Source: Chitinophaga sp. MM2321 (lineage in GTDB: Bacteria; Bacteroidota; Bacteroidia; Chitinophagales; Chitinophagaceae). Taken from it: a stretch of 64,000 nucleotides of DNA. Position numbers and translations under genes: made by a program. Under the pieces are notes generated by a model. That model was not told the origin of the DNA. It saw only the letters and a program-made list of their open reading frames with translations, and made no database searches. The stretch covers positions 1,922,001 through 1,986,000 of the forward strand of contig NZ_OZ035533.1 in assembly GCF_964033635.1 (NCBI RefSeq). Reading direction: 5' to 3'. This document shows, piece by piece, positions 37,715-52,438 of this stretch (within the stretch, counting starts at the first letter, position 1; each line of letters begins with the position of its first letter).

Positions 37715-37813
37715 AAAATGAAAAAGCCCGCAGATACAATATCTGCGGGCTTTTCGGCATATCGCGTAACAAAGCGTTACAATGATTTTAGCCTTTTAGT
37801 CGGGACGACTAGA
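37715..37813. repeat. 99-bp repeat with terminator (right copy)
   Basis: Matches 30120-30218 at 98 of 99 positions. It contains the terminator at 37721-37754 and passes directly into the 43-bp attachment repeat beginning at 37799. The terminator probably ended the tRNA-Pro transcript before the element inserted. Confidence 0.9.
37721..37754. terminator. Displaced terminator of tRNA-Pro
   Basis: Same 15-bp arms as at 30126-30159. It lies 45 bp to the left of the attachment repeat, the distance and side expected for the native terminator of the minus-strand tRNA-Pro before insertion. Confidence 0.8.
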
Positions 37814-37841
37814 TTCGAACTAGCGACCCCTTGCACCCCAT
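37799..37841. repeat. attL: 43-bp copy of the tRNA-Pro 3' half
   Basis: Identical to 51377-51419. It covers the discriminator base, acceptor strand, T arm, variable loop, the 3' strand of the anticodon stem and most of the anticodon loop. Beyond it the tRNA likeness ends at once (TATAG against GCAAG), so it is a non-functional fragment left by site-specific integration. Confidence 0.95.
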
Positions 37842-37960: not shown

Positions 37961-38011
37961 AAAGTGAATAATATTGATTCTATAGTAGAAAAAGCCCCCT
38001 ATGGAGTAACC

Positions 38012-38275: not shown

Positions 38276-38304
38276 AATTTTATTTTTTAATATATTACTG
38301 TGGT

Positions 38305-38571
38305 TTACATACCGGGAGGTACTTTGTGGTTAAAACGAGTGAATAATTCATGCCCAATGCCATGGATACCCTCAATAAAGTCGTCTATTAGCTTGTAAAC
38401 AGTCAATAATTCTGCTCTACTGGAACTTTGCATATCATCAGTTGTTTGACTTGCAATAGCATTATAGATGATGGCCCATAGCACTTCTTTGATGCTGGAT
38501 AAGTCATAAGTATCAAAAAGATCAAAGACTTTCTCTAAATGCTCCTTTGTACTTTGGCTTTCATGTTTCAT
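38305..38571 (-). CDS. Hypothetical protein
   Basis: 88 residues, mainly helical, acidic N-terminal half (KEHLEKVFDLFDTYDLSS). No family recognised. It overlaps the end of the upstream gene by 11 bp, which supports a real, translationally coupled gene. Confidence 0.6.
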   Translation of the reverse strand: MKHESQSTKEHLEKVFDLFDTYDLSSIKEVLWAIIYNAIASQTTDDMQSSSRAELLTVYKLIDDFIEGIHGIGHELFTRFNHKVPPGM

Positions 38572-39139
38572 CGCTGCTGTTTAAGAAATTACCGGATTTA
38601 TCGATTTCCTCTATTAATTCCAGCAGTACTTCATCTTTGCTACAATGATCTTCCAGGAGGGATGAAACACCCCACCAGTTACAACCAAAGGACCTAAATA
38701 CTACTTCTCCCATACTGATCAATGTATCAGATAACCAGTGTGGGATCAAATACCAGTCAAATATTTCCCTTTCCCTGCTTTTGGCTCCCTCTAATTTTTC
38801 AAGATCAGATACCAAGTCTGCTCTCTGGCTCATTAGTACTCTGGAATCGAACTCCAAGAGATTTTCCTTCAGTTTTACGTTGATGCCTTTTAGGCAATTC
38901 TGTATTTCAGCTATTTTATCGGTAAGAACCTCGTCAGTAGCTGTCAGGTAGCCATCAGACAAGGATAAATTGTATTTTACCCTGTTGTAGATATGATTGA
39001 AGTAGTCGAGATGCCTGTCCTCTTTTATTAAAGTATTGATTAAATGTGTCTGGTCTATCAGGATAGCTTTACTTAAAAATTCCTGATATTTTATTATTCG
39101 CTTATTTCCCATGTTTAGTGATTTTAGGTATTCCTTCAC
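38561..39139 (-). CDS. Hypothetical protein
   Basis: 192 residues from a GTG at 39139, or 183 from the ATG at 39112 (MGNKRIIKYQEF). Helical with a coiled-coil-like centre (TDKIAEIQNCLKGINVKLKE; ADLVSDLEKLEGAKSRE) and a more hydrophobic Trp-rich end (WYLIPHWLSDTL; CNWWGVSSLLED). Family not recognised. Part of the leftward operon and coupled to the next gene. Confidence 0.6.
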   Translation of the reverse strand: MKEYLKSLNMGNKRIIKYQEFLSKAILIDQTHLINTLIKEDRHLDYFNHIYNRVKYNLSLSDGYLTATDEVLTDKIAEIQNCLKGINVKLKENLLEFDSRVLMSQRADLVSDLEKLEGAKSREREIFDWYLIPHWLSDTLISMGEVVFRSFGCNWWGVSSLLEDHCSKDEVLLELIEEIDKSGNFLNSSDET

Positions 39140-39149
39140 GGGGGATGAT

Positions 39150-39371
39150 TTAGAACTGCATCAGAATATGAAAATGCTTATGTGTGAAAGGTTTACCGTT
39201 GATAATGTATATTAACAGGTCTTGAATGGTAGCCTGTACTTCCTGTACTATCATTTTGGTGCGTGGGGGTATACTCCCTACTTGTACGATAGTTACAACC
39301 CCAAAGGGACAGTATAATCGCCGGAGATACCCTTGTCTGTTAATTACGAGTATGCTGCTTTCTGACCGCAT
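39150..39371 (-). CDS. Small hypothetical protein
   Basis: 73 residues from the ATG at 39371 (MRSESSILVINRQG). It appears beta-rich and ends in IIN-GKPFTHKHFHILMQF, a tail that recalls small proteins of Bacteroidota mobile elements ending in an ING/D-GK-x(n)-F-x-I pattern. The frame is open to 39467, but the extra N-terminus is unlike protein. No function can be given. Confidence 0.5.
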   Translation of the reverse strand: MRSESSILVINRQGYLRRLYCPFGVVTIVQVGSIPPRTKMIVQEVQATIQDLLIYIINGKPFTHKHFHILMQF

Positions 39372-39487
39372 GTACAACAATTGAAGATTTATTGTTAATG
39401 ATGAATATGGGATGTCTGAGCAGGTATAAAAGCAAAAAGGCCGGATTAGATAATCCAGCCTGCTCATTACCCCAATGTTTACTAAAA

Positions 39488-40459
39488 CTAGTTTAGAAAC
39501 CAGTTGCCTTTCTTGCTGTCCAATCCTGTTTTGATCTGGTTTACAAATTGTAGGGCGTTAACTGATCTGTCCAGAAAATTGTCAATGTAGGTGCTTTTAT
39601 TAGCCTCCGTGAAGAGGTTATACAGCCTCCAAAGATTGATGTTTCCGTTACTGTCTCTACAGAAACTTTCATCCTTGTAGTAATCCTTTACTACAGCTCC
39701 AATCTGATTATCTCCAAATAGGAGAGGTGGCATCTCTGCTTTTATGTCTGTTGGGAGATGATTATACATTCTGGCTTTACCTACCAACTTTGCGAACTGC
39801 TGTTCCGTCAAAAAGTAATTGGTTAAATCCTTCATGGTGGCTAGATGACTGGCAGATTGATAGCTACTGAACAGATTGTAAATAGCCGTATAAAGCTGAT
39901 GCTGGTTTTTTACTTTAAGGTCACCTACATAGCCATCAGACCATACGCACATATTTGTACATACTTTATTCTGAAAGCCTATAAACACTTTAAAATGTTC
40001 ATCGGCACCTTTCTTTGTAGAAAGGTTATCCAGGTTATAAGCCTTTACACCACCTACAGTTAACGAAAGCTGATTTCCTCCGATGTAATCTGAAATGGAT
40101 GGTATTTCAATTATAAAAGCCATCCTTTCATAGTAAAGGGTCTTTTCATGCTCTAGTAGTTGATTTACGGGCTTATCTCTCGCTGAGGGAACTCTTCCTT
40201 TAATTGGATGGGATAGCCTAGTGTTGGGCTTTAAAACCAGCTCTTTACTGAATAGTTGATCAACAACATTTACCGCCGTCTCTATGAAATTTGCATGACT
40301 GATAACCTGCTCATTGTCTTTTGTGAAAACTGGAATAATGTGTGATTCCTTGATCTCCTTTAGTTTGGCTGGTATTGTGTTGGCCTCAATAAATGGCCTG
40401 CTTTCTGAAATAGGTACTTCTTCTGACTCAAAAGCCAGATACTCGCGTACAAGTTCCAT
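39488..40459 (-). CDS. DUF3871-family protein
   Basis: 323 residues with the family's start pattern: PFIEANT, then ESHIIPVFTKDNEQVISHANFIE, then HPIKGRVPSARDKP. DUF3871 proteins are found in phages and integrative elements of Bacteroidota and seem tied to DNA replication or recombination, though no activity has been shown to my knowledge. It follows the RecA-like ATPase gene by 12 bp. Confidence 0.8.
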   Translation of the reverse strand: MELVREYLAFESEEVPISESRPFIEANTIPAKLKEIKESHIIPVFTKDNEQVISHANFIETAVNVVDQLFSKELVLKPNTRLSHPIKGRVPSARDKPVNQLLEHEKTLYYERMAFIIEIPSISDYIGGNQLSLTVGGVKAYNLDNLSTKKGADEHFKVFIGFQNKVCTNMCVWSDGYVGDLKVKNQHQLYTAIYNLFSSYQSASHLATMKDLTNYFLTEQQFAKLVGKARMYNHLPTDIKAEMPPLLFGDNQIGAVVKDYYKDESFCRDSNGNINLWRLYNLFTEANKSTYIDNFLDRSVNALQFVNQIKTGLDSKKGNWFLN

Positions 40460-40471
40460 GATATTGGGATT

Positions 40472-41320
40472 TTATTGGTTATTAATGTTTGTTCCTAATT
40501 GGCTCAGGCGCTGTCTTTGGGTAGTAAACTCCTGCAAATGGGATTGCTGATTTTCAGGACTTTTCATGTACAGGTCCAGCAATTCATCAATGGATTTACA
40601 ATTGTTTATTTTGTCTGTAAGATCAGGAGGGAGATTTACCTTTGGGTCTGTTGACCCCTGATTGCACCATTCCAGAATTTCTATACCCATGTCAGGTGTA
40701 ATTATTACTGGTGGCTTGTTCATGAATAAACCAGTCCTGTCTTTACTTGCAGTGGCCTGATTTTTCATATCAAGGTCAAGTACTAATGTAAATTCATAGT
40801 CCATACCCTCTCTGGTAATAGCTTTCATTCCTACTTTTTCAGGAACCATCTTCCCGTTTTTTTCGGTAAGAACGTAATCCTGCTTAGTTCTTATAGTGGA
40901 AATAACGTGAACAGGTGATTGTAGAATGGCTTGTACAAATGAATTGTGCATCGGTGTGACCTTATTCCAGTTGGTATACGAATTGCCAGTCATGTTCCCA
41001 TGAATATCAAGAATATACTCCCATTCATGGGTGATGGAATCAATAATAATAGCCTCTATACCTTTCTGCTGGCAGGTTATAATAGCATTAATATATTTCT
41101 CAGTAGTAAATGGAGGTGATAATGTTAATACCTGATAGGGGCCTAAATCCGCATACAGATCTGCCGAATTATTCTCAGTATCAATGATGGCTATTTTGTT
41201 CCAGCATCCGCATAGACCATAGGCTGTAAGCAGGCTGCTCTTAGTTTTCCCTGAGCCACTTGGGCCAGCCAATGCCATTTTTATTTTTGCTTTATTTCTT
41301 TGCGCTTGACGAAGTTGCAT
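40472..41320 (-). CDS. RecA-like AAA ATPase of mobile element
   Basis: 282 residues. Walker A GPSGSGKT is at 19-26, preceded by a basic N-terminus (RQAQRNKAKIKMALA). IEAIIIDSITHEW is a clear Walker B, and VHVISTIRTKQDYVL follows as the sensor strand. This is the AAA_24-like group of phage and plasmid ATPases, often near single-strand-annealing proteins and SSB. A role in recombination or replication of the element is likely. Confidence 0.85.
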   Translation of the reverse strand: MQLRQAQRNKAKIKMALAGPSGSGKTKSSLLTAYGLCGCWNKIAIIDTENNSADLYADLGPYQVLTLSPPFTTEKYINAIITCQQKGIEAIIIDSITHEWEYILDIHGNMTGNSYTNWNKVTPMHNSFVQAILQSPVHVISTIRTKQDYVLTEKNGKMVPEKVGMKAITREGMDYEFTLVLDLDMKNQATASKDRTGLFMNKPPVIITPDMGIEILEWCNQGSTDPKVNLPPDLTDKINNCKSIDELLDLYMKSPENQQSHLQEFTTQRQRLSQLGTNINNQ

Positions 41321-41398
41321 GTTTCAGGATTTTGAATAGTAAATAAAAAGGACAAGATGAAATTCACCTTGCCCCGTTAATAAGAAAATTCTGGATGG

Positions 41399-41734
41399 TC
41401 AGCTTCCTTGTAATTGCGGTGTATTCGCCTTACTAAAGGATTCAGGTTGGTACGAATAGGTATGCGCCAGACTAATGACTTCGCCCGTCTGCTGTACAGT
41501 ATAATCATAAGGATCACACTCTATACGTTCAATTGTACCGGACATTTGTGTCCCTATCAGCATTTTTGCGGTGGATTCGTCAAACGTAGATGGAATGCTA
41601 GATTTCTTTGCAGTAGCGTAGAACTTTCCAGTTTGCTGGCTTTGAATCATTTCAATACCACTTTGAATCTCCAGTGTAATAAATGTCTTTCCTGTGCTGC
41701 TTTTACGCACATGGTAATTTGTGATGGTAACCAT
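41399..41734 (-). CDS. Hypothetical protein, possibly OB-fold/ssDNA-binding
   Basis: 111 residues. A beta-rich sequence (VTITNYHVRKSSTGKTFITLEIQS; GTQMSGTIERIECDPYDYTV) with a low-complexity polar tail (PESFSKANTPQLQGS), the general plan of SSB-like proteins. No diagnostic motif. Its place before the RecA-like ATPase gene is in line with this idea, which remains an inference. Confidence 0.5.
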   Translation of the reverse strand: MVTITNYHVRKSSTGKTFITLEIQSGIEMIQSQQTGKFYATAKKSSIPSTFDESTAKMLIGTQMSGTIERIECDPYDYTVQQTGEVISLAHTYSYQPESFSKANTPQLQGS

Positions 41735-41739
41735 TGAGG

Positions 41740-41879
41740 TAGATTTTTAGGTGAATTAATGACAGTGAGGTTCAGACACCGGGGGGAACGGTGGAACCTT
41801 TCGGGATGGGGCGGTGGTTGGGAGGGACCTTGGTATCCGCGTGAATACAAGGCGGGGGAGCAAGCGTGGGCGAGATTGC
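41740..41879. ncRNA. G-rich structured gap, candidate RNA or origin
   Basis: This 140-bp gap is far richer in G than the rest of the element (CCGGGGGGAACGG, GGGATGGGGCGG, AAGGCGGGGGAG). It can fold: CCTTG-TAT pairs with ATA-CAAGG around CCGCGTGA at about 41829-41854, and GGTTC with GAACC at 41770-41800. It could be a small RNA, an origin or a nicking site. Only sequence composition and pairing support it. Confidence 0.3.
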
Positions 41880-42395
41880 TTAATCAATAAAGTACTTTCT
41901 TAAAGCCAGGCTCCATTCTTTCAGCACTCCTGTATATTCTTCTATAGGGGATGTTTTAGCCTGTTCCAATTCCTTTATGAATGCGGTATTCAGTGCTAGA
42001 TCATCCCCAATGAAGGAAAGCCGATAGCACATCATTATTGGTAGTCCTGCTGAAAGATGCTTTAAGTAATTTAACAGGTCAGTTGTAGAATGGAGAGTCA
42101 ACTCCATATCTCCCTGCTCCAGCCTGTTTAATTCAGGATCGATAAGGTTATTGGTTTCCCTTATGGGGTCCTTACAGGAGCGACTTAGGGGATAGACATA
42201 GTAGACTCCCAGTTCGTTGAACCGCGTGTAAATTTTGATTGCTCTTTTTGTTGAAGTGATATTTAGTATGCAAACCACTTCAAAATTAAACTCAACGAAG
42301 GGGAGGCTGGTATATTTATTCCATAATTCTTTTTGCTCCGGAGTTAATGGCAGGTATTCTTCTTTTGGAAAATTTTCAAGTGATGGCCAGTGCAT
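41880..42395 (-). CDS. Hypothetical protein
   Basis: 171 residues; no motif recognised. A PLTPEQKELWNKYTSLPFVEFNFEV start and a helical acidic C-terminal half. It looks cytoplasmic. It lies between two exported/membrane-protein genes and the G-rich gap in the leftward operon. Confidence 0.6.
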   Translation of the reverse strand: MHWPSLENFPKEEYLPLTPEQKELWNKYTSLPFVEFNFEVVCILNITSTKRAIKIYTRFNELGVYYVYPLSRSCKDPIRETNNLIDPELNRLEQGDMELTLHSTTDLLNYLKHLSAGLPIMMCYRLSFIGDDLALNTAFIKELEQAKTSPIEEYTGVLKEWSLALRKYFID

Positions 42396-42413
42396 ATGAG
42401 TGAGCAGTGTGCT

Positions 42414-42761
42414 TTACTTTTTTTGACTTGAATTTAAAAAAGCATACAGAACAATGATGATAATAATTATACCAACGAGATACTTCCATGCCATATCAAA
42501 CGCCACAATACTGAAGTAAAGAAGCACTAAACCTGCTACTACACCAATTACGTTTCCAATTTTTACAATGTACTTTTCAGAAGAGCGCCTCATCCGGGCT
42601 GCCAAAATAACTAATAGTCCGCTTGCAATAATTCTTTCGAATATTTCATCACTAGTATAACCCCAATGTGTTTCATAGTATTCAATTCCTCTTTGAGCTT
42701 TTAGTGCTAATGTCTTTAATAGAAAGCAAATAAGAAGGAGTAGCCATTTTCTGTGATTCAT
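42414..42761 (-). CDS. Small integral membrane protein
   Basis: 115 residues. An N-terminal hydrophobic signal-like segment (KWLLLLICFLLKTLALKAQ) and three further hydrophobic helices (IIASGLLVILAAR; VIGVVAGLVLLYFSIV; YLVGIIIIIIVLYAFL). No family known. It is 19 bp downstream of the secreted-protein gene and probably works with it at the envelope; superinfection exclusion is one possibility. Confidence 0.6.
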   Translation of the reverse strand: MNHRKWLLLLICFLLKTLALKAQRGIEYYETHWGYTSDEIFERIIASGLLVILAARMRRSSEKYIVKIGNVIGVVAGLVLLYFSIVAFDMAWKYLVGIIIIIIVLYAFLNSSQKK

Positions 42762-42780
42762 TGTAAATGATATTTTTTTT

Positions 42781-43290
42781 CTATTTGTTAATTTCCATAC
42801 TAATTAATCCGGTATGATTCTTTATATCATTTTTAATGTTGAGGACAAATTTAGCATAATAGTTATCAGGTAATTGGCTAACTATTTTATAACTTTGATA
42901 CCCTCCCCTAACTGTAGAAACTTGTCCTTTACGATTTAAGTCCTCTATCAACTTTACCGCGAAATCAAACTTGTCTGGTGTAAACATCATGAAAATCTGA
43001 TATTTGTTCTTTTTAATAGAGATTGCATATTGGGAGTTATCTATCCAAAGAAAGGCTTCATTGTATCCGGTTGAATAGTTATATGACACTTCATAACCAT
43101 AGGCTGTCATAGTTTTAATAAAGATGCTTTCATCGCATAATGTGAGTCCAATTAGGTTTGAATAAGTAGGTTCTATAACCTTAGCACCGTTCAGCATGAC
43201 ATGGTCATATTCTGGGATTTTCTGCGCCTTTATTATTAGAGGTGGAATAGCAAGAATAACTAATAAGAAGACGCTCCGTACATTTTGCAT
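42781..43290 (-). CDS. Secreted hypothetical protein
   Basis: 169 residues with a Sec signal (VRSVFLLVILAIPPLIIKAQ). The mature part is a mixed alpha/beta domain (CDESIFIKTMTAYGYEVSYN; YQIFMMFTPDKFDFAVKLIEDL) that I cannot assign. First gene of the leftward block and divergent from the XRE regulator across the 16-bp palindrome. Confidence 0.6.
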   Translation of the reverse strand: MQNVRSVFLLVILAIPPLIIKAQKIPEYDHVMLNGAKVIEPTYSNLIGLTLCDESIFIKTMTAYGYEVSYNYSTGYNEAFLWIDNSQYAISIKKNKYQIFMMFTPDKFDFAVKLIEDLNRKGQVSTVRGGYQSYKIVSQLPDNYYAKFVLNIKNDIKNHTGLISMEINK

Positions 43291-43377
43291 AGGTATTTCG
43301 TGTTTTAGATTGTTTTGAAAAGTATCTATTGATTTATAGGGAATCTACCTTATCGAAAGTAGGCTATTTTTCAAAAT

Positions 43378-43393
43378 AGAGCAAATTTGCTCT
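43378..43393. promoter_or_regulatory. 16-bp perfect palindrome, likely XRE operator
   Basis: AGAGCAAATTTGCTCT, with no mismatch, lies in the divergent region between the leftward operon (start 43290) and the XRE gene (start 43429). XRE repressors bind such sites, so it is the natural operator for autoregulation and control of the leftward genes. Confidence 0.6.
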
Positions 43394-43428
43394 TATTTAG
43401 GTTGAGTGATGCCCGTCTCTTTGCCTCT

Positions 43429-43656
43429 ATGAAATATTATAGGGACGAAGCATTTTTACAGAAATTCGGGGAGCAACTAAGAAATATTCGTAAGGGGAAG
43501 GGGTTTTCGCAGGAAGATTTAGCTAATGAATGTGGTTTACCACCTAGCCAGATAGGCCGCATGGAGAGAGGGCAGCTCAATACGGCAATTAGCTATCTAC
43601 CATTGATAGCTAAAATTCTCAAGGTACCAGTAAAGCAGTTAATCGATTTTGATTAG
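43429..43656 (+). CDS. XRE-family helix-turn-helix regulator
   Basis: 75 residues from the ATG at 43429 (MKYYRDEAFLQKF); an upstream TTG at 43387 lies inside the palindrome and is unlikely as a start. The HTH_3 domain covers most of it: QLRNIRKGKGFSQEDLANE, CGLPPSQIGRMERGQLNTA, IAKILKVPVKQLIDF. It probably represses the element's leftward operon. Its gene converges on the VirE-type helicase gene with an 80-bp gap. Confidence 0.9.
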   Translation: MKYYRDEAFLQKFGEQLRNIRKGKGFSQEDLANECGLPPSQIGRMERGQLNTAISYLPLIAKILKVPVKQLIDFD

Positions 43657-43736
43657 GGTAGGGTAACCAAGGTTATCCAAGTAATCATTTTCTTTTATTT
43701 AATACTTTTGAGGTTTTATACTTACCCTACTTACCC

Positions 43737-44954
43737 TTAAAGTAGTTCATACTCTTTGTCATCCAATTGAAACATCAAAAAATATCCCCAATCACTTTTT
43801 TGTTTCTTCCGTTCAAATTTGTTCTTTTTCAGCATTTTCCCCATTATGTTTGGTGAATAGGTAATTTTATTGGAAGTAACCTTTTGAAGGAAAAGAACGA
43901 TGTTAGTAGCATTATAGAATTTCCCATTTTCTTTGGTACCCGGTGCGAAATATTTTAGAAGCATTTCTTCTTCTGGGGTGCTTATCTGATATTGATCATT
44001 ATTCTTGCATACTTCTGCTATTTCTTCGTCATTAAACCAATAGGCAAATTTTGATCTGTAAAGACATAATAATTGTGAATATAATTGCGCTAAATCAATC
44101 TCATGGTTATAAATCATACTTTCCACTTCATGACATAAGAAACGCCTTGACCCAGTAGGATCATTTAGAAATTCTATACTATTTACTGAGCCAACAAAAG
44201 AGGCTCGGCGTATCAATGTCTCGGCATTACGTGCGTATGGTCTTCGCACTCTAATTTGAGATTGTGTAATTACTTCTTTCAATACACCTACGCTTTTTCT
44301 GTTCATCGTTTCCAATTCATCCAAAATTATCAGCATACATTCGGAGAGATTAACAATTGTATCTTTGTTGTCTGGGTGAACAAGTCCCATAAATGCGTGG
44401 TTCTGCAATTCTTTAGGTACCAAATTTAGTAACCAGGTTGTTTTTCCAATACCTTGCGCGCCTACTAAAACAAGAACAGTATGATTTACCACCTTTGGAT
44501 CCAGCAGGCCTGCAACCATTGCAACGAGCCATTTCTTTAAATGTATTTCCCATAAATCCTGATTCTTACACCTTATGGTAGACGCCAATTTGCGAACATG
44601 ATCTTCTTTATCCCATTCAGGAAGATTTTTAAAATATTCACTGAATAGGTCATAACGTGGACTGAAATCCGAATTTAGAAAGTCTGCTAAGAGAGTGGAG
44701 GTACATTTAATACCATTCTTAAGAAAGTCTCGCATAATGGAATTGAGCAAATAATCAGTTAAAGAAGTGTATTTCGTCTCTTTTTTCTTCTTTACTTCAA
44801 CCTGACCGGTAATGATATTGTACCTGCTATCATACCTTTTCTTCAATGCCCATTCTACAGGGTGCATCTGTGACCCAAGAGAAAGACTGTCGACTTCTTC
44901 CATATCTGCGAAACTGTCTATAAGAGGGGCGTCTGGCTCGTTTCTTTTATTCAT
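43737..44954 (-). CDS. VirE/VapE-type P-loop helicase of mobile element
   Basis: 405 residues. The virulence-associated E domain is clear: Walker A GAQGIGKT at 165-172, Walker B LIILDELE with Asp212-Glu213, then VGVLKEVITQSQIRVRRPYARN, and SFVGSVNSIEFLNDPTGSRRFL with the arginine finger. The C-terminal part (YSPNIMGKMLKKNKFERKK) looks like a small winged-helix. It is the replicative helicase-like ATPase of many integrative elements and satellites. The usual N-terminal primase (CHC2/TOPRIM or AEP) is absent. It is divergent from the polymerase-like gene. Confidence 0.9.
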   Translation of the reverse strand: MNKRNEPDAPLIDSFADMEEVDSLSLGSQMHPVEWALKKRYDSRYNIITGQVEVKKKKETKYTSLTDYLLNSIMRDFLKNGIKCTSTLLADFLNSDFSPRYDLFSEYFKNLPEWDKEDHVRKLASTIRCKNQDLWEIHLKKWLVAMVAGLLDPKVVNHTVLVLVGAQGIGKTTWLLNLVPKELQNHAFMGLVHPDNKDTIVNLSECMLIILDELETMNRKSVGVLKEVITQSQIRVRRPYARNAETLIRRASFVGSVNSIEFLNDPTGSRRFLCHEVESMIYNHEIDLAQLYSQLLCLYRSKFAYWFNDEEIAEVCKNNDQYQISTPEEEMLLKYFAPGTKENGKFYNATNIVLFLQKVTSNKITYSPNIMGKMLKKNKFERKKQKSDWGYFLMFQLDDKEYELL

Positions 44955-45051
44955 AGTAGGGATCTTGATGAAATTTAAAATAAAGTATAATTGGAGAGTG
45001 ATTTATTAACAAAAAATACAAATAAAATTAGATATATTCAAATAATATACG

Positions 45052-45059
45052 TATCTTTG
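45052..45059 (+). promoter_or_regulatory. Bacteroidota -7 box upstream of polymerase-like gene
   Basis: TATCTTTG, a perfect match to TAnnTTTG. A start of transcription a few bases downstream would give a 90- to 150-nt leader before the polymerase-like gene. No clear -33 element. Confidence 0.45.
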
Positions 45060-45156
45060 CATGTATTTTGGTGACACCACTTTTAGTATCAGATTCCATA
45101 AAATATACCTTCACAGTTTTAAACATTGGTCATAAAGATCAGCCACTAGCAAGCAA

Positions 45157-46635
45157 TTGCTTTCTCCTTTAATATATCAAAAAACCAATAATGAAAAACA
45201 ATTTATATCAGAATATATGCTTATTGCGTATATCTGGATGAGTAGAAAAATTTTTTTACCTGAGAATCTTGATTTAGACAAGTACATCTCCCAATACCCA
45301 CCAAATTTTCATCCATTTCATATTGATAACCTACGGTACCTACTGTATCTGGTAAAAGCAGTACCCACACAATCACGTTCGCCTTTGGTTGACGGTTGGA
45401 CTACACTCTGTGCGCAGATTCTTGTAAAGTATGTCAGGGATTATCAACATTATTTAGGGTATGCTCTGAGAACTGAGATTCTTCAATCAACAGGGGCATA
45501 TACACCTGGTGAACGTTGCCGTGAATACAGGTTTACAGCAGTTTATAGAAATTCCCCATTGAAGGAAAGCATCGTTAGTGATCCTGTCCTGTTGAAAAAA
45601 CTATCGATTATCTCCACTGGGGATGATAAAATGGCGATTGCTCAAAAGGAGTACAAGTATGTCACTTCCTTCTTTAAATCTGGCGATCTAGGAATTAATA
45701 AGGACAAAGTTATTAACGAACTTAACACCACTTACGTAAAATCTGATCCCAGATACCAGCATGGAATTATTACCATTAACAACATCATGGAACAAAATTG
45801 GCGTTTCTCCATTTCAGAAAGAACGAGGAGATTTTATTCCACTATCACTAGTTTACCTCGAAAGTTGCGTCAGTACATAACTTATGGAGGTCAAAAGTTG
45901 GTAGAAATTGATATATCCAATTGTCAACCATTTTTTATTCTCGGTTTGTTTAATAAGGACTTTTGGATGAGTCCTACAAGTAGATATGATTTCAAGTTTA
46001 AGAACGTGCATCCTCTATTATATAAGAGGGTAAGAAAGACTGATACTAGTATATATTATAAAAGTATAATTAAATATATCAATATGCTAGCAGAAAGCGA
46101 TGGAAATGCCTACAGTAAACGTTCTTGTGATTTAGAAAAATACCAAAATCTAGTTGTTAGTGGTGACCTCTACGAATATATGATGGATATTTATTTGGAG
46201 CACTGCCACATAAAATACCAGGTTAGAGAGGAAGTAAAAAAAATGGTAATGTGGGTAATGTACGGAAATCCAGATGACATAGATATAGATATGGATTGCA
46301 GGAATTATCAGATAAATCCCATTGCCCTATTTAAACAACTCTTCCCTGTTGTGCATGGTCTACTCGATCTTTTGAAAAAGATTGATTATCGATATTGTTC
46401 GTGGCTTCTACAAGGTATGGAGGGTTTTATTATGCTGAAAATAATACCAAATAGAATTAAGAAGGAAAGACCAGATGTCCCAATTTTTACTGTCCATGAT
46501 TCAATATTGACAACCGAACCCAATATCGAATATGTTCGGAATGTGATATCAGAGGAGATTGAAAAGCATGTCGGCTATAGACCACCATTAAAATGTAATA
46601 ATGGGGTTATTGCACCAGTTAGTGCGTTGGTCTGA
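45157..46635 (+). CDS. Putative single-subunit polymerase-like protein (family A/T7-type palm motifs)
   Basis: 492 residues from a TTG at 45157 (an ATG at 45217 would give 472). I know of no named family, but the motif order fits the family A DNA polymerase / T7-type RNA polymerase palm. Motif A is like EIDISNCQP with Asp252 and Ser254. Motif B is R357-x3-K361-x7-Y369-G370 (REEVKKMVMWVMYGN), the exact spacing of both families. Motif C is FTVHDSI with His447-Asp448. A conserved-looking RRFYSTITSLPRKLRQYI precedes motif A. No exonuclease domain is visible. It is divergent from the VirE-type helicase gene. A role as replicative or primer-making polymerase is inferred; a few active-site positions differ from the classical ones. 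Confidence 0.65.
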   Translation: MLSPLIYQKTNNEKQFISEYMLIAYIWMSRKIFLPENLDLDKYISQYPPNFHPFHIDNLRYLLYLVKAVPTQSRSPLVDGWTTLCAQILVKYVRDYQHYLGYALRTEILQSTGAYTPGERCREYRFTAVYRNSPLKESIVSDPVLLKKLSIISTGDDKMAIAQKEYKYVTSFFKSGDLGINKDKVINELNTTYVKSDPRYQHGIITINNIMEQNWRFSISERTRRFYSTITSLPRKLRQYITYGGQKLVEIDISNCQPFFILGLFNKDFWMSPTSRYDFKFKNVHPLLYKRVRKTDTSIYYKSIIKYINMLAESDGNAYSKRSCDLEKYQNLVVSGDLYEYMMDIYLEHCHIKYQVREEVKKMVMWVMYGNPDDIDIDMDCRNYQINPIALFKQLFPVVHGLLDLLKKIDYRYCSWLLQGMEGFIMLKIIPNRIKKERPDVPIFTVHDSILTTEPNIEYVRNVISEEIEKHVGYRPPLKCNNGVIAPVSALV

Positions 46636-47251
46636 TAGCTTTTGTTTAGCCGTGTGGGAAAAGGCTGCTAACGGCTTTAAAATGCAGCTATTAAGGAATA
46701 TAGAGGATATAATAACAAAATCTATGAATGAAGGAAAAAATAAGGTGTTTTTTCTATGGGGGAAGGGGCTACTACGAAAAGACCATCTACCCATTTCTGT
46801 CTAAAATCAGTATGTTGCTCTTTCGCTTCTTTTCCTAAGATAGCTAAAAGGGATAAACATTTTTCATGCAGGGGTAAACCTGTGATGTTTTTAGTCATTT
46901 ATAATAATTGAGCATACATTTTAAAGGTTTTAAGCCGAAAGAAGTGATATGCCAATTTCTGCGTTGGAGAACATCTGTGTTCGTTGAATCTTGAGGCTTA
47001 TATGTATTGCTATAATTTTTAAAGAAAAGGTGTGAGCTAGTCAAAGTAGATTCGGAACCGCAGAAGAAGCGGATGATGTAGCTTTCTTCGTTAATCGGGA
47101 GTTTTATTATTTAGAAGTATTTTTCAATTTTCTATAATTTAGCCTAAATCAATTAGGGTATACATCTCAGGAATTTTCATATTTCATAAACGTATACCCT
47201 ATGTTAATTTCACGAATAAGACACCTGTAGTTGATGAATCACTTTGGATAG
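46636..47251. other. Gene-poor gap after the polymerase-like gene
   Basis: 616 bp with no secure gene. A 40-codon frame at 46682-46804 (MQLLRNIEDIITKSMNEG...) could be a small protein but has no support beyond its opening. An imperfect hairpin with T tract at 46855-46892 may end the polymerase-like transcript. A second inverted repeat at 47154-47201 probably terminates the ATPase gene from the other side. Confidence 0.4.
47154..47201 (-). terminator. Inverted repeat downstream of the OLD-like gene
   Basis: Perfect 10-bp arms TAGGGTATAC and GTATACCCTA with a 28-nt loop, 50 bp past the minus-strand stop. It resembles the 49965-50011 repeat past the integrase stop. The loop is long for a simple terminator. 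Confidence 0.45.
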
Positions 47252-48742
47252 CTATCCCTCCTTTGGAATCTTATCATAAAAGCCAGAAAGAAGGGTCTGT
47301 CTTTCCTCGGGGAAGGCTTGATTCCAGACTGCTAAGAAAGCCATTTTTACCAAGTCCTCTGGTATTAGACCAAGTTTCATTCCTACTTGCGAAAATAAGA
47401 CATGTGGATCACGATTTGTCAATCTAATATCAGCTATTATTTTGGCAACCTGATCGGCCTGATCAGGTCTTTTATGCAATGCTGCTGCCAAAATAATTTT
47501 AAACTCATCAATTTTTTCCAAGACTGAATTATAAATGTAATTCTCAGGGGATTCACCAGGTAGTCTGAAAATGGAATTGGTAGGATCATCAACCTGCCTA
47601 GAGTCTCCATCAATGATACAAATAGATGGGAATTTTTCCTTTACCGTTGGGTTTAACATGTGGTGCTTGTGCATATTGACCGCATTTCCATCACCATTTA
47701 ACGGATGAATTTCCATAGTATCTAGGGATATGCCATCTTCATACCTAAGCATTGACTCTACCCACATTTTTGCGAATTCATCTTCAACAAAGATCGCAAG
47801 TTTGAGATCAATTTCGCCTGTAATTGCCCTGAGTGAATGAATGTTTAATTTACCTTGGTATAATTTTCCATCAATCGTTGCCCAAATAGCCTTATTGGGT
47901 AGTGGTTTTAACGCATAGTCAGAATGAGTAGTAAATATTGATTGGATTTTTTTTCGATAGGCAACGTCGATCAAGTATTCAACCATTTTGATAGTTGCAA
48001 TTGGATGTAACCCATTTTCTATTTCTTCAATTAGCACAAGCGAATTATCTGGCAATGCTTCAATTTGTGAAACCATTCTAATTATACTTGATTCTCCCGC
48101 GCCAAAATGAAATTCGGAATACTGCTGACCGCTTTGGTTCTTACCGGAAAGAAAGTCGATATCTCCAGATTCATTGAATCTAATGTACCTGAATGAAGAA
48201 ACATCTTTCCCTAAAATTTGACTTATGGCTACGCCTAACGTTTGAGTCATGGGATAGATATTAGTCGTTTGAAACATTACTTTGCTATTAGCAAAGCGAT
48301 TGAATTCATTTTTCTCAATGGGAGGGACAGTACGGGACACTCCAAAATCTAAAACCTTTCTATCCAGTGGATTTCTATTCCATCGTAATCTTTTGAAGTT
48401 TGCAGTTCTTTTGATAATATCGTTAGCAACTTTTGACCTATCAATGAGTTCATATTGAATTTCCCAATTGCTCATATCAAGATCTAGGTTACCGCCTCTG
48501 GCAAAATATTTTTTTGGTTGAATGTCTTTATAAATGATAGCGGCTGATCCTATTATTGTTGTTTTTCCGCTTCCGTTAGTGCCAATGATAGCCGTGACCG
48601 GAAAATCAAATGTTATATTCTGATTATTTAGACCTCGTACACGCGTCAAAAGTATTTTGCTTAGATAGTTACCATAATTTCTATTGGCGGCCTTTTCCAA
48701 AAGAGCTTGTATAACGCTGTCGCGAATTTCACTTTGGTACAT
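47252..48742 (-). CDS. OLD-like ATPase with C-terminal TOPRIM-type nuclease motifs
   Basis: 496 residues. An ABC/SMC-type ATPase: Walker A GTNGSGKT at 54-61, signature-like FGAGESS at 213-219, Walker B LVLIEEIENGLHP with Glu239-Glu240, and H-loop His273 (FTTHSD). The C-terminal part has TOPRIM-like acidic sites: Glu320 (AIFVEDE) and Asp378-Gly-Asp380 (IIDGDS). This is the plan of OLD-family proteins and of defence ATPase-nucleases such as those in Gabija and PARIS, though I cannot assign it to one system. Its place in the cargo slot beside an integrase relic suggests phage defence. Confidence 0.8.
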   Translation of the reverse strand: MYQSEIRDSVIQALLEKAANRNYGNYLSKILLTRVRGLNNQNITFDFPVTAIIGTNGSGKTTIIGSAAIIYKDIQPKKYFARGGNLDLDMSNWEIQYELIDRSKVANDIIKRTANFKRLRWNRNPLDRKVLDFGVSRTVPPIEKNEFNRFANSKVMFQTTNIYPMTQTLGVAISQILGKDVSSFRYIRFNESGDIDFLSGKNQSGQQYSEFHFGAGESSIIRMVSQIEALPDNSLVLIEEIENGLHPIATIKMVEYLIDVAYRKKIQSIFTTHSDYALKPLPNKAIWATIDGKLYQGKLNIHSLRAITGEIDLKLAIFVEDEFAKMWVESMLRYEDGISLDTMEIHPLNGDGNAVNMHKHHMLNPTVKEKFPSICIIDGDSRQVDDPTNSIFRLPGESPENYIYNSVLEKIDEFKIILAAALHKRPDQADQVAKIIADIRLTNRDPHVLFSQVGMKLGLIPEDLVKMAFLAVWNQAFPEERQTLLSGFYDKIPKEG

Positions 48743-48913
48743 TGATTTTCTTTTTTAGGATTCTGACAAAACTATGAATTTTGCCACTTGAAACCAGTAA
48801 TATTTTCTTTTTTTAAAGCAGCATGAAATAATAACCTTGATTTAGCTAGTTATTGAAACATTTAAGTAAGCTAGTAGAGGGTTTCCTCTAGCTTGTCGAG
48901 ATGGTCTAATAGA
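48743..48913. other. Promoter region of the OLD-like gene
   Basis: AT-rich upstream sequence with no gene. It contains a short inverted pair AGAGGGTTTCCTCT at about 48886-48899. Confidence 0.35.
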
Positions 48914-49070
48914 TTAATATTGCGACCTATAGTTGATGCTTGGCAGTGTAGTAGAGGGTTTAGTTATATCCACGTAACTAGGTATAACTGTTTCCGAAGT
49001 AGCATGCCCCATCGCATAAGCATTGCTGGTAGCAGCCACTGTTCAATAGACCGAGTACCATAGATGCATA
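48914..49070 (-). pseudogene. C-terminal relic of a second tyrosine integrase
   Basis: On the minus strand IYGTRSIEQ, then after a frameshift VAATSNAYAMGHATSETVIP, then SYVDITKPSTTLPSI and the stop TAA at 48914-48916. This aligns with the end of the intact integrase (FGTRSIQQ, TAYALGHSTIETAVRTYVHV, EKPTTALPSI). The box II Arg-adjacent region, the late His and the catalytic Tyr are all recognisable. The rest of the gene is gone. Confidence 0.8.
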
Positions 49071-49130
49071 TAACGCCTAATTTATCTATATTGTAGATAT
49101 TTATAAGTTGTACGCTATAAATTTCGCAAC

Positions 49131-49835
49131 ATGACACAAACTGATATAAAACAAGAATTAAGCCTATACTTTTTGAAGCTTCAATCCTTTAATGACATTA
49201 CTAGCCATGAATACTTGCAAAATCTGGTAATTTATTTAGCCGCTAAACAAATAATTGAAAAAAGGAAAGCCAAACTCTTAAAAGACAAGACTTTTGAGGA
49301 CATGCTGAATTCTGCATTAAAAGATTTAGATTATGAAAATGTTGTTGAGGAGTATTTGAACGCAGCTAGAAACTTAATGCCAGCTTTTTATAATCAATTT
49401 TCCTCTTCGGAAATTCAAAATGAAGTTCTTGAATTATCAACCTCAGATGATGGACTAGAAAAGTGTTATGCTTTTTTAAAATTGAAAGAGTACGGCAACT
49501 CCAGAAAGGCAATAGTTACGTTTAAAAGCAATAAACAGATTAATTACACTTACGACTCTGAGCGAAACGAAAAGTCTCAAAGCTACATGACAACGCAAAT
49601 TATCTCTTTGTTTCAAGAAGGGAATATTTATGAATTTGAAATGTTAGACCCCTCTACTAATTCAAAGAAGCGAATTGGCGATTTGAAATATGAATTAGAA
49701 GCACACGGTTTTATTTGTTACTCAAATGCAGATGTTAGAGTTCAACTAAACAGAGATGACCCATTTTTTAATCCTGCAGTTGTATCAGCTGACATAATTG
49801 ACATTCAAAAGAAATGGTTGGTATCATTTGAATAA
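49131..49835 (+). CDS. Hypothetical protein in cargo slot
   Basis: 234 residues, no family recognised. The first 100 residues are helical and charged (AAKQIIEKRKAKLLKDKTFEDML), the rest mixed alpha/beta (YGNSRKAIVTFKSNKQINYTYD; GDLKYELEAHGFICYSNADVRV). It is divergent from the OLD-like ATPase across the integrase relic and ends at a good terminator. It may be a second defence gene or unrelated cargo. Confidence 0.7.
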   Translation: MTQTDIKQELSLYFLKLQSFNDITSHEYLQNLVIYLAAKQIIEKRKAKLLKDKTFEDMLNSALKDLDYENVVEEYLNAARNLMPAFYNQFSSSEIQNEVLELSTSDDGLEKCYAFLKLKEYGNSRKAIVTFKSNKQINYTYDSERNEKSQSYMTTQIISLFQEGNIYEFEMLDPSTNSKKRIGDLKYELEAHGFICYSNADVRVQLNRDDPFFNPAVVSADIIDIQKKWLVSFE

Positions 49836-49856
49836 CAATTGCACAAGAAATGCAGC

Positions 49857-49892
49857 AAAAGGCTACTTCCTCTTGTCAGTAGCGGCTTTTTA
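49857..49892 (+). terminator. Intrinsic terminator after the cargo gene
   Basis: Arms AAAAGGCTACT and AGTAGCGGCTTTT with one mismatch/bulge around a 10-nt loop, followed by TTAG. It lies 22 bp past the stop at 49835. Confidence 0.65.
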
Positions 49893-49910
49893 GCATAATT
49901 TTTCTAATAT

Positions 49911-49942
49911 ATTTTTCGCAATTTTTATTTTTCGCAATTTTT
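49911..49942. repeat. Two tandem copies of a 16-bp unit
   Basis: ATTTTTCGCAATTTTT occurs twice with no gap (49911-49926 and 49927-49942). Two copies are too few to call an iteron array. No function is evident. Confidence 0.6.
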
Positions 49943-49964
49943 CAGAAAATAGATATACTAGAAT

Positions 49965-50011
49965 GAGGGCGTATATTTTACTGGTTTATACCTATAAATT
50001 TATACGCCCTC
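49965..50011 (-). terminator. Inverted repeat past the integrase stop
   Basis: Perfect 11-bp arms GAGGGCGTATA and TATACGCCCTC with a 25-nt AT-rich loop, 31 bp after the integrase stop. Similar in sequence and position to 47154-47201. Confidence 0.5.
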
Positions 50012-50041
50012 TTCAATATCACCTGTATAAATACATACGTT

Positions 50042-51247
50042 TTATCCTACCTTCCTACTAATACTCGGCAATGCCGTAGTCGGCTTCTCCACATGCACAT
50101 ACGTCCTTACTGCTGTTTCAATGGTAGAATGGCCCAATGCATAAGCGGTATCAGTAACAGATATTCCCTGCTGAATAGACCGTGTTCCGAAACTGTGTCT
50201 TGCTGCATACAAGTCTTTATCTCCAAAACCTAACGCTTTCATTACTGGTTTGTATATGCGGCGTTGTAGCATATGATCATCGATACACATTCCTCTAGGG
50301 GAGGGGAATACGAAATCGTCCTCTTTCCTGCCTTTTATCTGTTTGATTAATAGCAGCCTTAATTCCTCGTTTAGTGGTAGATACCTGACATTATCAGTCT
50401 TTGTTTCCTTCCTGATTCGGGCGACATGGCTGGTTCCTTTTACACTCCGGGCAAATGTTTCTGAAATTTCAACGGTGTTAGCAGTAAGGTTTATATGTTT
50501 TACACGTAATCCAACTGCTTCTGCGTTCCTTACCCCAGTGTAAAAAATGAAGAGGAAGAAGGGGTAATAATGAGCGTGCTTAAACCGTGAGTTGGAGGGA
50601 CAATAGGTGTTTTCCTGTATAGCATTCAGGAATGAGAGTATTTCATCTTCTGAAAGCGGCTTCCTCCTGTCAAGCACCTTTTTCTTTACCTTCCTTCTGC
50701 TGACATCAGCCAAAGGGTTATAGGTTATTTCTGATTTATTCTGTAGCCAGGTTAAAAAGCTCTTTAAGAATCCCAGCCTTCGATTGAAGGTAGTAGGAGC
50801 AACTTGATCCCTGTTAAGGCATATTACAATTTCGTCAACCGGTAGGTTCCCCTGTTTCTCCAACAGCCTCCGTGTATACAGGTAGTCGAAGGAGTTGTCA
50901 ATGTCAATGTTACGTATATGCTTTGTCCAGAAATTAAATCTTGGAACAAGCTGTTTAAGCAGTTCATGTTTGCTGGTAGCTTCTTTTGGTTGTTCAACCT
51001 GCTTTTTAGGCTTTAATAACCGGATCTCTTCTTTGTATTTTTCCAATGATGGATCAAAACAACCTTTCAGTATATCCAGTTTAATTTCTGTGACTTTAAC
51101 GGTTGCATGATGAAGGTTGCTATCTGTGTACGAATATGGGAGATTTAGTGAATAGCGTTCTGTATTAACCCGCCATCGTAATCTGATACGCCCTTTATGA
51201 TTGGTGATGCTAATCTCTCCAGGGAGATTCTTGGATTTGTGACCCAT
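50042..51247 (-). CDS. int: Tyrosine recombinase/integrase
   Basis: 401 residues from the ATG at 51247; the frame is open to a TTG at 51259 that would add MGHK. An N-terminal arm-binding domain (HKGRIRLRWRVNTERYSLNLP), a SAM-like core-binding domain (FDYLYTRRLLEK...TTFNRRLGFLKSFLTWL) and the catalytic domain are present. Catalytic residues are Arg240 (TGVRNAEA), Arg350 (ARHSFGTR, with Tyr in the usual HxxR His place), His373 (LGHST) and Tyr383 (RTYVHV). The gene points away from tRNA-Pro, 130 bp from it. It catalyses integration and excision at the tRNA 3' half. Confidence 0.95.
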   Translation of the reverse strand: MGHKSKNLPGEISITNHKGRIRLRWRVNTERYSLNLPYSYTDSNLHHATVKVTEIKLDILKGCFDPSLEKYKEEIRLLKPKKQVEQPKEATSKHELLKQLVPRFNFWTKHIRNIDIDNSFDYLYTRRLLEKQGNLPVDEIVICLNRDQVAPTTFNRRLGFLKSFLTWLQNKSEITYNPLADVSRRKVKKKVLDRRKPLSEDEILSFLNAIQENTYCPSNSRFKHAHYYPFFLFIFYTGVRNAEAVGLRVKHINLTANTVEISETFARSVKGTSHVARIRKETKTDNVRYLPLNEELRLLLIKQIKGRKEDDFVFPSPRGMCIDDHMLQRRIYKPVMKALGFGDKDLYAARHSFGTRSIQQGISVTDTAYALGHSTIETAVRTYVHVEKPTTALPSISRKVG

Positions 51248-51258
51248 TTTGTGACCCA
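51240..51258. promoter_or_regulatory. Paired TGACCCA motif at right end, overlapping the integrase start
   Basis: Two heptamers at 51240 and 51252, same spacing and direction as at 37942-37960. They flank and touch the integrase ATG (51245-51247), so integrase binding here could also repress its own gene. Confidence 0.5.
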
Positions 51259-51334
51259 AACCGGGTATTTATAGGTCATATTATGTGCTGGTTTATCCAT
51301 AGGGGAAAGCTAAATATCGGAGTTTTGAACAATG

Positions 51335-51370
51335 AAAAAAGCCCTACAGTCTTAACTGTAAGGCTTTTTT
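51335..51370 (-). terminator. Terminator now serving tRNA-Pro
   Basis: Arms AAAAAAGCC-TACAGT and ACTGTA-GGCTTTTTT, with one mismatch. It is 8 bp downstream of the tRNA 3' end and lies within the element, replacing the native terminator displaced to 37721-37754. Confidence 0.8.
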
Positions 51371-51376
51371 CTTAGT

Positions 51377-51419
51377 GTCGGGACGACTAGATTCGAACTA
51401 GCGACCCCTTGCACCCCAT
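51377..51419. repeat. attR: 43-bp attachment repeat within tRNA-Pro
   Basis: Identical to 37799-37841. It begins 1 base beyond the tRNA discriminator base and ends in the anticodon loop, so insertion rebuilt a complete tRNA at this end. Confidence 0.95.
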
Positions 51420-51451
51420 GCAAGTGCGCTACCGGGCTGCGCTACGTCCCG
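51378..51451 (-). tRNA. tRNA-Pro(GGG)
   Basis: 74 nt without CCA. Acceptor CGGGACG pairs with CGTCCCG, D stem GCGC/GCGC, anticodon stem CTTGC/GCAAG around ATGGGGT (anticodon GGG), T stem GCTAG/CTAGT with TTCGAAT loop, discriminator A. All arms close. It remains functional after element insertion because the element restores its 3' half. Confidence 0.96.
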
Positions 51452-51544
51452 AACTTTCCGGTTGTCTCTTTTCAGTGACGGGATGCAAAAGTAGCCAATT
51501 ATTTCATTTTTTAAAATTTTGTACCCTCTTTTTTGAATTTTTTT

Positions 51545-51712
51545 TTAATCCCGCTTAGACCCGCGCGTTATCAGGAATACAATCACCGCTATCACTACTG
51601 CTACTGCAAAGATACCCGTCCATACGCCTGCCTTGAAAATACCACCGATCACCTGACAACTACTCATAAAAACGATCATTGCTGTCAGCATAAAATAGCT
51701 AAGGTGTTTCAT
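51545..51712 (-). CDS. Small lipoprotein with one membrane helix
   Basis: 55 residues from the ATG at 51712. A lipobox-like MSSCQ follows a short hydrophobic start (SYFMLTAMIVFMSSC), then VIGGIFKAGVWTGI and a single helix (FAVAVVIAVIVFLI) ending in RGSKRD. Small proteins with this VIGGIFKAG-W-G pattern are, as far as I recall, common in Chitinophagaceae, function unknown. The transfer RNA gene is next to it on the same strand. Confidence 0.75.
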   Translation of the reverse strand: MKHLSYFMLTAMIVFMSSCQVIGGIFKAGVWTGIFAVAVVIAVIVFLITRGSKRD

Positions 51713-51826
51713 AATGTTTGTTTAATGGGGTGAATAGATACAAAATCCAGCTGCATATCCCGTACCAAAAAAATATTTGCAGGTGTCAGAATAATTGCCC
51801 AGCTTTATCTTTACAACCAAAATAGC

Positions 51827-52438
51827 ATGGATAAAGGGAAAGCCTTACTTACAGGCTTACAGGTTGTGGCTTCCCATTCCTCACTTTGGGGACGCTTTCT
51901 GGAGGGAGACCGCCACGCCTTCGCTGAAATTTATGAAACACATATAGATCACCTCTTTCATTACGGCATGCACTTCTGCCAGGATAAGGAAAGGGTGAAT
52001 GACGCCTTGCAGGACCTGTTCCAGGACCTGTGGCTCTCCCGTGAACACCTCACTACTACTATTCAGAATGTCCGCTATTACCTCATCAGCAGCTTGCGCC
52101 GCCGCCTGCTCCGTTCCCTGCAAAAAGACCGCCGCTGGCAACACCGCGACTCCTGGGAATCTTTTGAGTTCGAATACACGCTCCCAAGAGAAAATAACCT
52201 GATCCTGGAAGAAACTGCAGCAGAACAGCAACGTTTGTTGCAGGAAGCCCTGGGCCATCTTTCCCGCAGGCAACGGGAAGCTATTTACCTCCGCTTTTAT
52301 CAAAACCTCAGCTACCAGGAAGTAGCCGGCATTATGGCCATGCAGGTAGATTCCGTATATAATACCATCTCCAAAGCTATCAGCATCCTGAAAAAAACAA
52401 TTCCCCTCCCTTTATTGCTCACACTTTTGAGCAGATAA
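51827..52438 (+). CDS. ECF RNA polymerase sigma factor
   Basis: 203 residues. Region 2 (EGDRHAFAEIYETHIDHLFHYGMHF; DALQDLFQDLWLSREHL) and region 4 (LGHLSRRQREAIYLRFYQNLSYQEVAGIMAMQVDSVYNTISKAI) are complete. First gene of the second sigma/FecR/SusCD set; it should activate the SusC-SusD-GH2-MFS genes when released by FecR. TATCTTTA at 51806-51813 resembles a -7 box but is very close to the ATG. Confidence 0.93.
   Translation: MDKGKALLTGLQVVASHSSLWGRFLEGDRHAFAEIYETHIDHLFHYGMHFCQDKERVNDALQDLFQDLWLSREHLTTTIQNVRYYLISSLRRRLLRSLQKDRRWQHRDSWESFEFEYTLPRENNLILEETAAEQQRLLQEALGHLSRRQREAIYLRFYQNLSYQEVAGIMAMQVDSVYNTISKAISILKKTIPLPLLLTLLSR

Follow-up and report, generated by a model that had tools for sequence, protein, structure and literature searches.

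A probable minimal polymerase of the family-A type with a winged-helix-like front domain in a tRNA-Pro-integrated element of Chitinophaga

Minimal family-A polymerases of mobile elements were described as TV-Pol by Iyer, Abhiman and Aravind in 2008, with Bacteroidetes among their sources, and were proposed to act as primase-polymerases (PMC2579912). Counted among the TV-Pol-type polymerases is CcPol-MP, which has been shown to prime DNA; CcPol needs MP for this priming, and it keeps the equivalents of E710 and F762, named by the authors as discriminating against ribonucleotides (available sections of PMC7581432). Kin of CcPol-MP have been modelled in Bacillota (available sections of PMC10061031). 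In this study we discuss a protein of Chitinophaga sp. MM2321 for which an earlier note had suggested a minimal polymerase, perhaps of a new family. As a minimal polymerase of the family-A/T7 kind it is borne out by the predicted model and fold search presented below, while a new kind of enzyme is not supported, TV-Pol having been described in 2008 (PMC2579912) and CcPol-MP having been shown to prime (available sections of PMC7581432).

The window, by which we mean the whole analysed stretch of 64,000 nucleotides, holds the polymerase gene in a frame that is open throughout 45157-46635 (+) and gives 492 aa from TTG in the ORF list, and the reverse frame is crowded with stops and has no antisense ORF. 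The database copy starts at ATG 45217 and has 472 aa, so its numbering is 20 lower than that of the 492-aa form. Judged from the sequences, the ATG at 45238 (465 aa) is probably the likelier start than TTG 45157, because many homologues have as their first residues the 'xxFLPENLD' segment, which reads RKIFLPENLDLD in the window's polymerase. The residues singled out earlier, D252-I-S254, R357-x3-K361-x7-Y369-G370 and T445-V-H-D448-S, are found at the places given for them.

On the whole, the protein is recognised by no curated family, as had been remarked before. Pfam returns 0 families even at E 10, thus no nuclease domain or match of any other kind, and no NCBIfam family recognises it; phmmer against the PDB finds none, and hmmsearch against the PDB finds two weak, unrelated matches. 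Among the 25 of 47 Pfam families listed for 81 members at E 1, PF00476 is absent. The predicted model and fold search nevertheless give the right-hand palm, fingers and thumb of family A over residues ~152-486, not an unrelated fold. With the family-A DNA polymerases (Pol I, pol theta and T7 DNA polymerase) the protein shares this fold and motifs A, B and C in order; unlike them it has no Pfam match and no Pfam nuclease, and in the fold matches, which are headed by DNA polymerases, identity is 10-14% over aligned residues. The VIA list for the whole model spans residues 132-466 of the 472-aa form and leaves room for families outside the list. A BFVD entry, A0A8D9FR19, 'Putative DNA polymerase I [uncultured marine phage]', matches the model with E 3e-18, therefore a relative is already labelled as a polymerase. 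By profile-profile alignment (hhalign) against 29 PolA proteins (from 30 loci, one of which yielded no clean frame) the match is weak, at E 0.015, and falls at the right site, the hairpin. In addition, phrog_4756, which has no assigned function, matches 11 of 80 members.

At the place taken in Pol I by the exonuclease, the window's polymerase has an N-terminal domain that looks winged-helix by the DSSP topology of the whole-protein model. Residues 30-126 run strand, helix, helix, strand, helix, helix, strand, strand, which is the order of a winged helix preceded by a strand and a short helix, and the ten-residue pLDDT means of the domain are 92-98 except in two blocks of 75-76. Profile searches of the PDB and Pfam with this domain alone gave nothing convincing.

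Table 1. Coordinates in the window of the polymerase gene, its parts (492-aa numbering) and the surrounding element
Feature	Position	Strand	Basis
Polymerase gene	45157..46635	+	ORF as found, 492 aa from TTG; probably likelier start ATG 45238 (465 aa)
N-terminal domain, winged-helix topology (residues 30-126)	45244..45534	+	DSSP order in predicted model
Beta-hairpin R225...T231, counterpart of PolA 'GR-x-HT' site	45829..45849	+	R 80/80, T 79/80; weak hhalign match to PolA exactly here
Motif A, D252-I-S-N-C-Q-P258 (catalytic Asp; Q257 at sugar-gate position)	45910..45930	+	D 80/80, Q 76/80
Motif B, R357-x3-K361-x7-Y369-G370 (fingers)	46225..46266	+	K361 80/80
L-Q-x-x-E (418-422) helix ahead of motif C	46408..46422	+	Q 78/80, E 80/80
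Motif C, T-V-H-D448-S-I	46489..46506	+	H, D, S 79/80 each, one gap
Left attachment repeat, 43 bp	37799..37841		exact direct repeat
DUF3871 protein, frequent companion	39488..40459	-	PF12987 E 1.1e-114; 12/23 genome loci, 0/12 further loci
AAA_24 ATPase (Sak4-like), frequent companion	40472..41320	-	PF13479; phrog_124; cluster in 12/23 genome loci
Putative OB-fold ssDNA-binding protein, 111 aa	41399..41734	-	weak model
Cro/CI-type HTH regulator	43387..43656	+	PF01381
VapE/VirE-type helicase without primase domain, optional part	43737..44954	-	PF05272 E 1.8e-42; divergent from polymerase
Cargo: HEC-04 candidate anti-phage (defence) ATPase	47252..48742	-	PADLOC PDLC04149, full length, E 1.7e-209
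Tyrosine integrase	50042..51259	-	PF00589 E 7.6e-19
Right attachment repeat, 43 bp, within tRNA-Pro	51377..51419		exact direct repeat
tRNA-Pro (ggg), integration target	51377..51451	-	Rfam

Relatives of the polymerase are shown to be spread over Bacteroidota and viruses. A protein search found 19 besides the polymerase itself, 22-34% identical, and a profile search raised the list to 23. The pattern-led scan of one GTDB genome per species gave 23 loci, with 22 in Bacteroidota and one (L017) in Ignavibacteriota by tree label or record name, and the pattern scan of IMG/VR gave 52 loci on contigs of 8.5-436 kb; both scans start from two short peptide patterns and hence miss relatives. Six of 50,697 phage records match; they measure 595-735 kb, and two share both length and match position. 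Among plasmids there is one match, in Hymenobacter, found with the relative P0009 as query. Of the sampled genomes, 19 of 395 in the phylum and 18 of 195 in the family have a match, where the counts include the window's own genome, many matches are partial, and one count scored at most 4 candidates a genome.

All residue counts are based on one alignment of 80 rows, the query included, in which the other rows are 18-31% identical to the query. Left out of it were, from the 24 searched proteins, the near copies P0018-P0020; from the 23 genome loci, L004, judged a near copy, and the broken L019 and L021; and from the 52 viral loci a total of 13, namely L024 (broken), L033 and L034 (alike, both out) and, judged copies or near copies, L030, L046, L049, L050, L053, L056, L068, L069, L070 and L075; L076 was also dropped. 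In the tree of the 80 rows, 37 of the 39 viral rows form one clade with support 100/99, and the window's protein falls among Bacteroidota rows, its exact place being unsure because several branches are long. Five residues are unchanged in 80 of 80 rows: R225, which lies beside a short strand in the predicted model, D252, Y339, K361 and E422. T231 (79/80), R238 (78/80), N255 (79/80) and Q257 (76/80) are nearly so, and in motif C each of H447, D448 and S449 is kept in 79 rows, the remaining row having a gap. Position 357 is R in 53 and K in 21 of the 80. Since these columns are conserved across the alignment, the named residues are beyond chance. TV-Pols also have a conserved aspartate in the fingers (PMC2579912). 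The column nearest to the Pol I DxxH, by our own placing, is D in the window's protein and mostly N, K, Q or L in the family, and the next but one is the invariant Y339.

The polymerase gene lies in a small integrative element, as had been proposed for it: 13.6 kb are enclosed by 43-bp exact direct repeats, one of them within tRNA-Pro. As a control, 40 random window segments reach at most 14, and Rfam at gathering thresholds reports tRNA only in 37000-52000. The OB-like protein is 3.4 kb from the polymerase, outside the polymerase-helicase interval, on a weak model. The VirE-type helicase does face the polymerase gene in divergent orientation and does lack a primase part, as the earlier note had said, its alignment to phage primase-helicase families being limited to their C-terminal part; as a general partner it does not hold. 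An obligate role for it was rejected: phmmer found a relative of this helicase in 0 of 76 first-round loci, PF05272 has no match at all in 18 of 23 host genomes, and in 12 further loci the helicase occurs once (L112).

These 12 further loci come from 11 genomes; all belong to the window's family except L116, which is of the same class. In 18 of the 23 genome loci an integrase of one cluster lies no more than ~5 kb away from the polymerase, and the cluster is represented in 8 of the 12 further loci (one weak, one 6 kb away). In the other 5 and 4 loci respectively, some of them on short contigs, it was not found. The AAA_24 ATPase and DUF3871 occur in 12 of the 23 genome loci each and the OB-like protein in 7, up to 9 kb off, and in the further loci the numbers are 3, 0 and 2. 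From the association across loci, the polymerase and the integrase are the more stable core, and the rest varies. In roughly half of the genome loci, the DUF3871 protein and the Sak4-like AAA_24 ATPase recur together close to the polymerase.

By ARAGORN a tRNA gene is present in 16 of 20 loci (the 12 further loci and 8 of the 23 genome loci). Among the 8 further loci holding a tRNA, 4, all of the window's family, have tRNA-derived direct repeats of 26-45 bp (L113, L114, L118 and L119). With 40 random segments a locus the control maxima are 13 in L118 and 21 in L119, below the repeats, and in L113 (45) and L114 (35) they equal the repeats, which probably reflects random segments placed on the repeat. 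No att repeats were found in 8 Flavobacteriia loci, where the fetched stretches may stop before the far end, and repeats in L007 and L015 were rejected as att sites, being neighbouring tRNA genes. Two of the tRNA-delimited elements, L114 (7.0 kb) and L118 (7.9 kb), have the integrase and the polymerase and no other Pfam replication domain, L118 having an HNH endonuclease of the homing kind in addition. In L114, the smallest element, the stretch separating the tRNA from the integrase holds, at 7218-7272, a pair of 20-bp palindromes that are almost identical and lie 35 bp apart.

Taken together, we consider it rather likely that the protein is a divergent minimal polymerase of the family-A type with an N-terminal winged helix, serving as replication protein of the tRNA-Pro-integrated mobile element. 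The fold, the motif conservation, the element boundaries and the association with integrase and tRNA are computed here, and from them we infer catalytic activity, origin binding and a replication role. The polymerase is probably the element's own replication enzyme, since relatives of it are carried by other Bacteroidota elements and by very large phages. In the mechanism we propose, the integrase would excise the element at the tRNA and the winged helix would bind the element's origin, holding the polymerase there; the palm (Asp252, Asp448 and two metals), the fingers (R357, K361) and the small thumb would then start and/or extend a DNA strand, with help from host factors, or from the VirE-type helicase, the AAA_24 ATPase and the OB-like protein where the element has them. 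The least certain parts are self-priming, which the enzyme perhaps performs, and whether its product is DNA or perhaps RNA.

The same mechanism would be compatible with a plain TV-Pol, a member of the 2008 family known from Bacteroidetes, other mobile elements and Sputnik; this is a question of classification, and we hold such a membership to be possible, at somewhat less than even weight. The likeness is considerable. As in TV-Pol, there is a minimal palm-fingers-thumb core of 400-600 aa with no nuclease, in mobile elements with an integrase, and Bacteroidetes are among the named sources (PMC2579912). The palm with two conserved aspartates is present here (D252 80/80 and D448 79/80, together with the fold), and so are the beta-hairpin with its absolutely conserved Arg (R225, 80/80) and the RxxxK of the fingers (R357/K361, the first place being R in 53 or K in 21 of 80). 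Against it, a TV-Pol subset has a predicted all-helical N-terminal domain (PMC2579912), whereas the domain here is winged-helix-like; the link to a D5-type helicase is frequent, if not obligatory, in TV-Pol (PMC2579912) and rare here, a helicase being found in the window and L112 and mostly absent elsewhere; and unlike TV-Pol the present family is also found in phages of 595-735 kb. The motifs are also unlike, DxxKCH and QHDG in the Microcystis phage LMM01 group against DISNSQP and TVHDSI in this family. The hhalign match to that 5-row group, presumed to be TV-Pol, has E 0.096 and is not significant, a weak comparison in which PolA itself reaches only E 0.015. Its reference MAP_030 is presumed to be a TV-Pol from its place beside transposases; its viral relatives are 84-94% identical and a protein search gave 6 matches, too few for a strong profile. 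PF00476 matches in LMM01 as pieces at one place only, LMM01's own polymerase. By analogy, the polymerase may work like TV-Pol and CcPol, most of the testable core features of TV-Pol being found in it; because the profile match to the presumed TV-Pol group is not significant, we file it as TV-Pol/CcPol-like and as a possible member of the TV-Pol family.

With CcPol-MP and the PolA-SSB primases it has in common a family-A polymerase in an integrative element and, in the window's element, a small OB-like protein. In the available sections of PMC7581432 and PMC10061031, the full-length PolA-SSB primases have part or all of a 3'-5' exonuclease domain, where the segment here looks winged-helix by topology; every example given there comes from Bacillota, in most cases next to a large serine recombinase, in contrast to the tyrosine integrase and tRNA here; and the OB-fold partner is encoded between polymerase and helicase. 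The OB-like gene here, on a weak model, lies elsewhere. In the same sections CcPol is described as closely related to Pol I, with both the E710 and the F762 equivalents retained; this family has Q and Y/F/M/L instead, with no PF00476 match. Our search of the open-licence literature in PMC turned up no account of this family, either in tRNA elements of Bacteroidota or in huge phages. As far as that search goes, the winged-helix-like front domain, the Bacteroidota tRNA elements of integrase plus polymerase and the link to 595-735-kb phages are new. With this family, the minimal family-A polymerases gain a deep and unannotated branch that has another kind of front domain and that ranges from small elements of Bacteroidota up to 595-735-kb phages. 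Some elements seem to be without other replication genes, therefore the way in which a family-A enzyme starts a strand without a separate primase is testable with one protein and one plasmid. A possible use of the enzyme is as a compact tool polymerase.

A bolder version of our preferred reading, which we regard as speculative and rather unlikely, takes the protein as an all-in-one replicator. A single polypeptide of ~465 aa, in which a winged helix that binds the origin is fused to a family-A polymerase that primes for itself, would be the whole replication set of the 7-8-kb tRNA-targeting elements; the same lineage, with its near-invariant Gln sugar gate, would use both rNTPs and dNTPs and would have been exchanged with very large phages as a primer-maker. 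If true, this would be a one-protein primase-initiator outside the DnaG and AEP types.

The protein might instead be an accessory polymerase of repair or recombination, or belong to an anti-phage system that the element has as cargo, which we think unlikely. Such a role would agree with the frequent companions (AAA_24/Sak4-like ATPase and DUF3871 in 12/23 genome loci each, the OB-like protein in 7/23), with the defence cargo in the window's element, and with the searched huge phages, which keep the family member beside another DNA polymerase. Among five distinct huge-phage records searched whole, four have matches to family-B polymerases and none to PF00476 or Pol III alpha, and in the fifth there are Pol III alpha and, ~0.6 kb from the family member, a match to PF00476 (DNA_pol_A); hence the family member is not the sole polymerase in any of the five, and it might add to the other one, as a primer-maker or repair enzyme might. 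The polymerase itself, however, has no PADLOC match and stays with the integrase as other genes change, which is the behaviour of a core gene, and L114 and L118 carry it without the ATPase. The fifth phage is LR756511.1 (595 kb), with L093/L094 at about 393.9-396.4 kb. In one jumbo-phage lineage, a 'DNA polymerase I' group, which may or may not be this family, is listed beside a family-B polymerase (available sections of PMC12619734). Around the viral and plasmid loci (L024-L076, 53 loci), two gene families of unknown function recur, downstream in 39 and upstream in 38. The upstream family has ~442 aa and the downstream one ~179 aa; as in L042, L043 and L068, they adjoin the polymerase or lie close to it, and they are possible partners.

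Slightly less credible still is a single-subunit RNA polymerase like that of T7, whose winged helix would read a promoter and which would transcribe the element or make RNA primers. The HDS of motif C is as in T7 RNA polymerase, and the motif B of the window's protein, M365...Y369-G370, is nearer the T7 RNA polymerase version, as the earlier note had observed; this is true of the window's protein and not of the family, where position 369 is F in 70 and Y in 6 of 80 members, position 365 is Y in 40, F in 22, M in 9 and L in 9, and position 370 is G in 44. The closeness to T7 RNA polymerase claimed there is not supported by the fold search either, since DNA polymerases head the matches. In favour of this reading, phage RNA polymerases do appear in the viral fold list, from rank 25, and a match to phrog_2051, 'RNA polymerase', was obtained in 1 of 80 members (E 6.2e-4). 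Against it, T7-type RNA polymerases have Gly at motif A +5, and this place is Q in 76, H in 3, M in 1 and G in none of the 80 rows. It is the place of E. coli Pol I E710, and the place of Pol I F762 is the one with Y 40, F 22, M 9 and L 9; with Q (76/80) and Y/F/M/L at these two places, the choice of sugar is unreadable from sequence. In favour of an RNA polymerase, a fused DNA-binding domain recalls the promoter-binding domain needed by the T7 and N4 enzymes (available sections of PMC7581432). Finally, that the palm is catalytically dead and the protein a DNA-binding initiator only is most improbable, given that the two Asp, the Arg of the hairpin and the Lys of the fingers vary hardly or not at all across 80 rows with 18-31% identity to the query.

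Around the polymerase gene, no convincing origin or iteron array was found, and a scan for sigma-70-type promoters gave 23 sites against 26.2 in shuffles. Between a 234-aa ORF and the integrase, 49910-49941 holds two exact tandem copies (16 bp) of TATTTTTCGCAATTTT, which are possible iterons or integrase sites. To the left of the element, a 99-bp direct repeat (30120-30218 and 37715-37813, 99% identical) flanks a stretch of 7.6 kb. Each copy closes with the opening 15 bp of the att repeat, and between the two, at 37043-37471, there is a fragment that by eye resembles an integrase, so an older insertion at the element's own site is likely.
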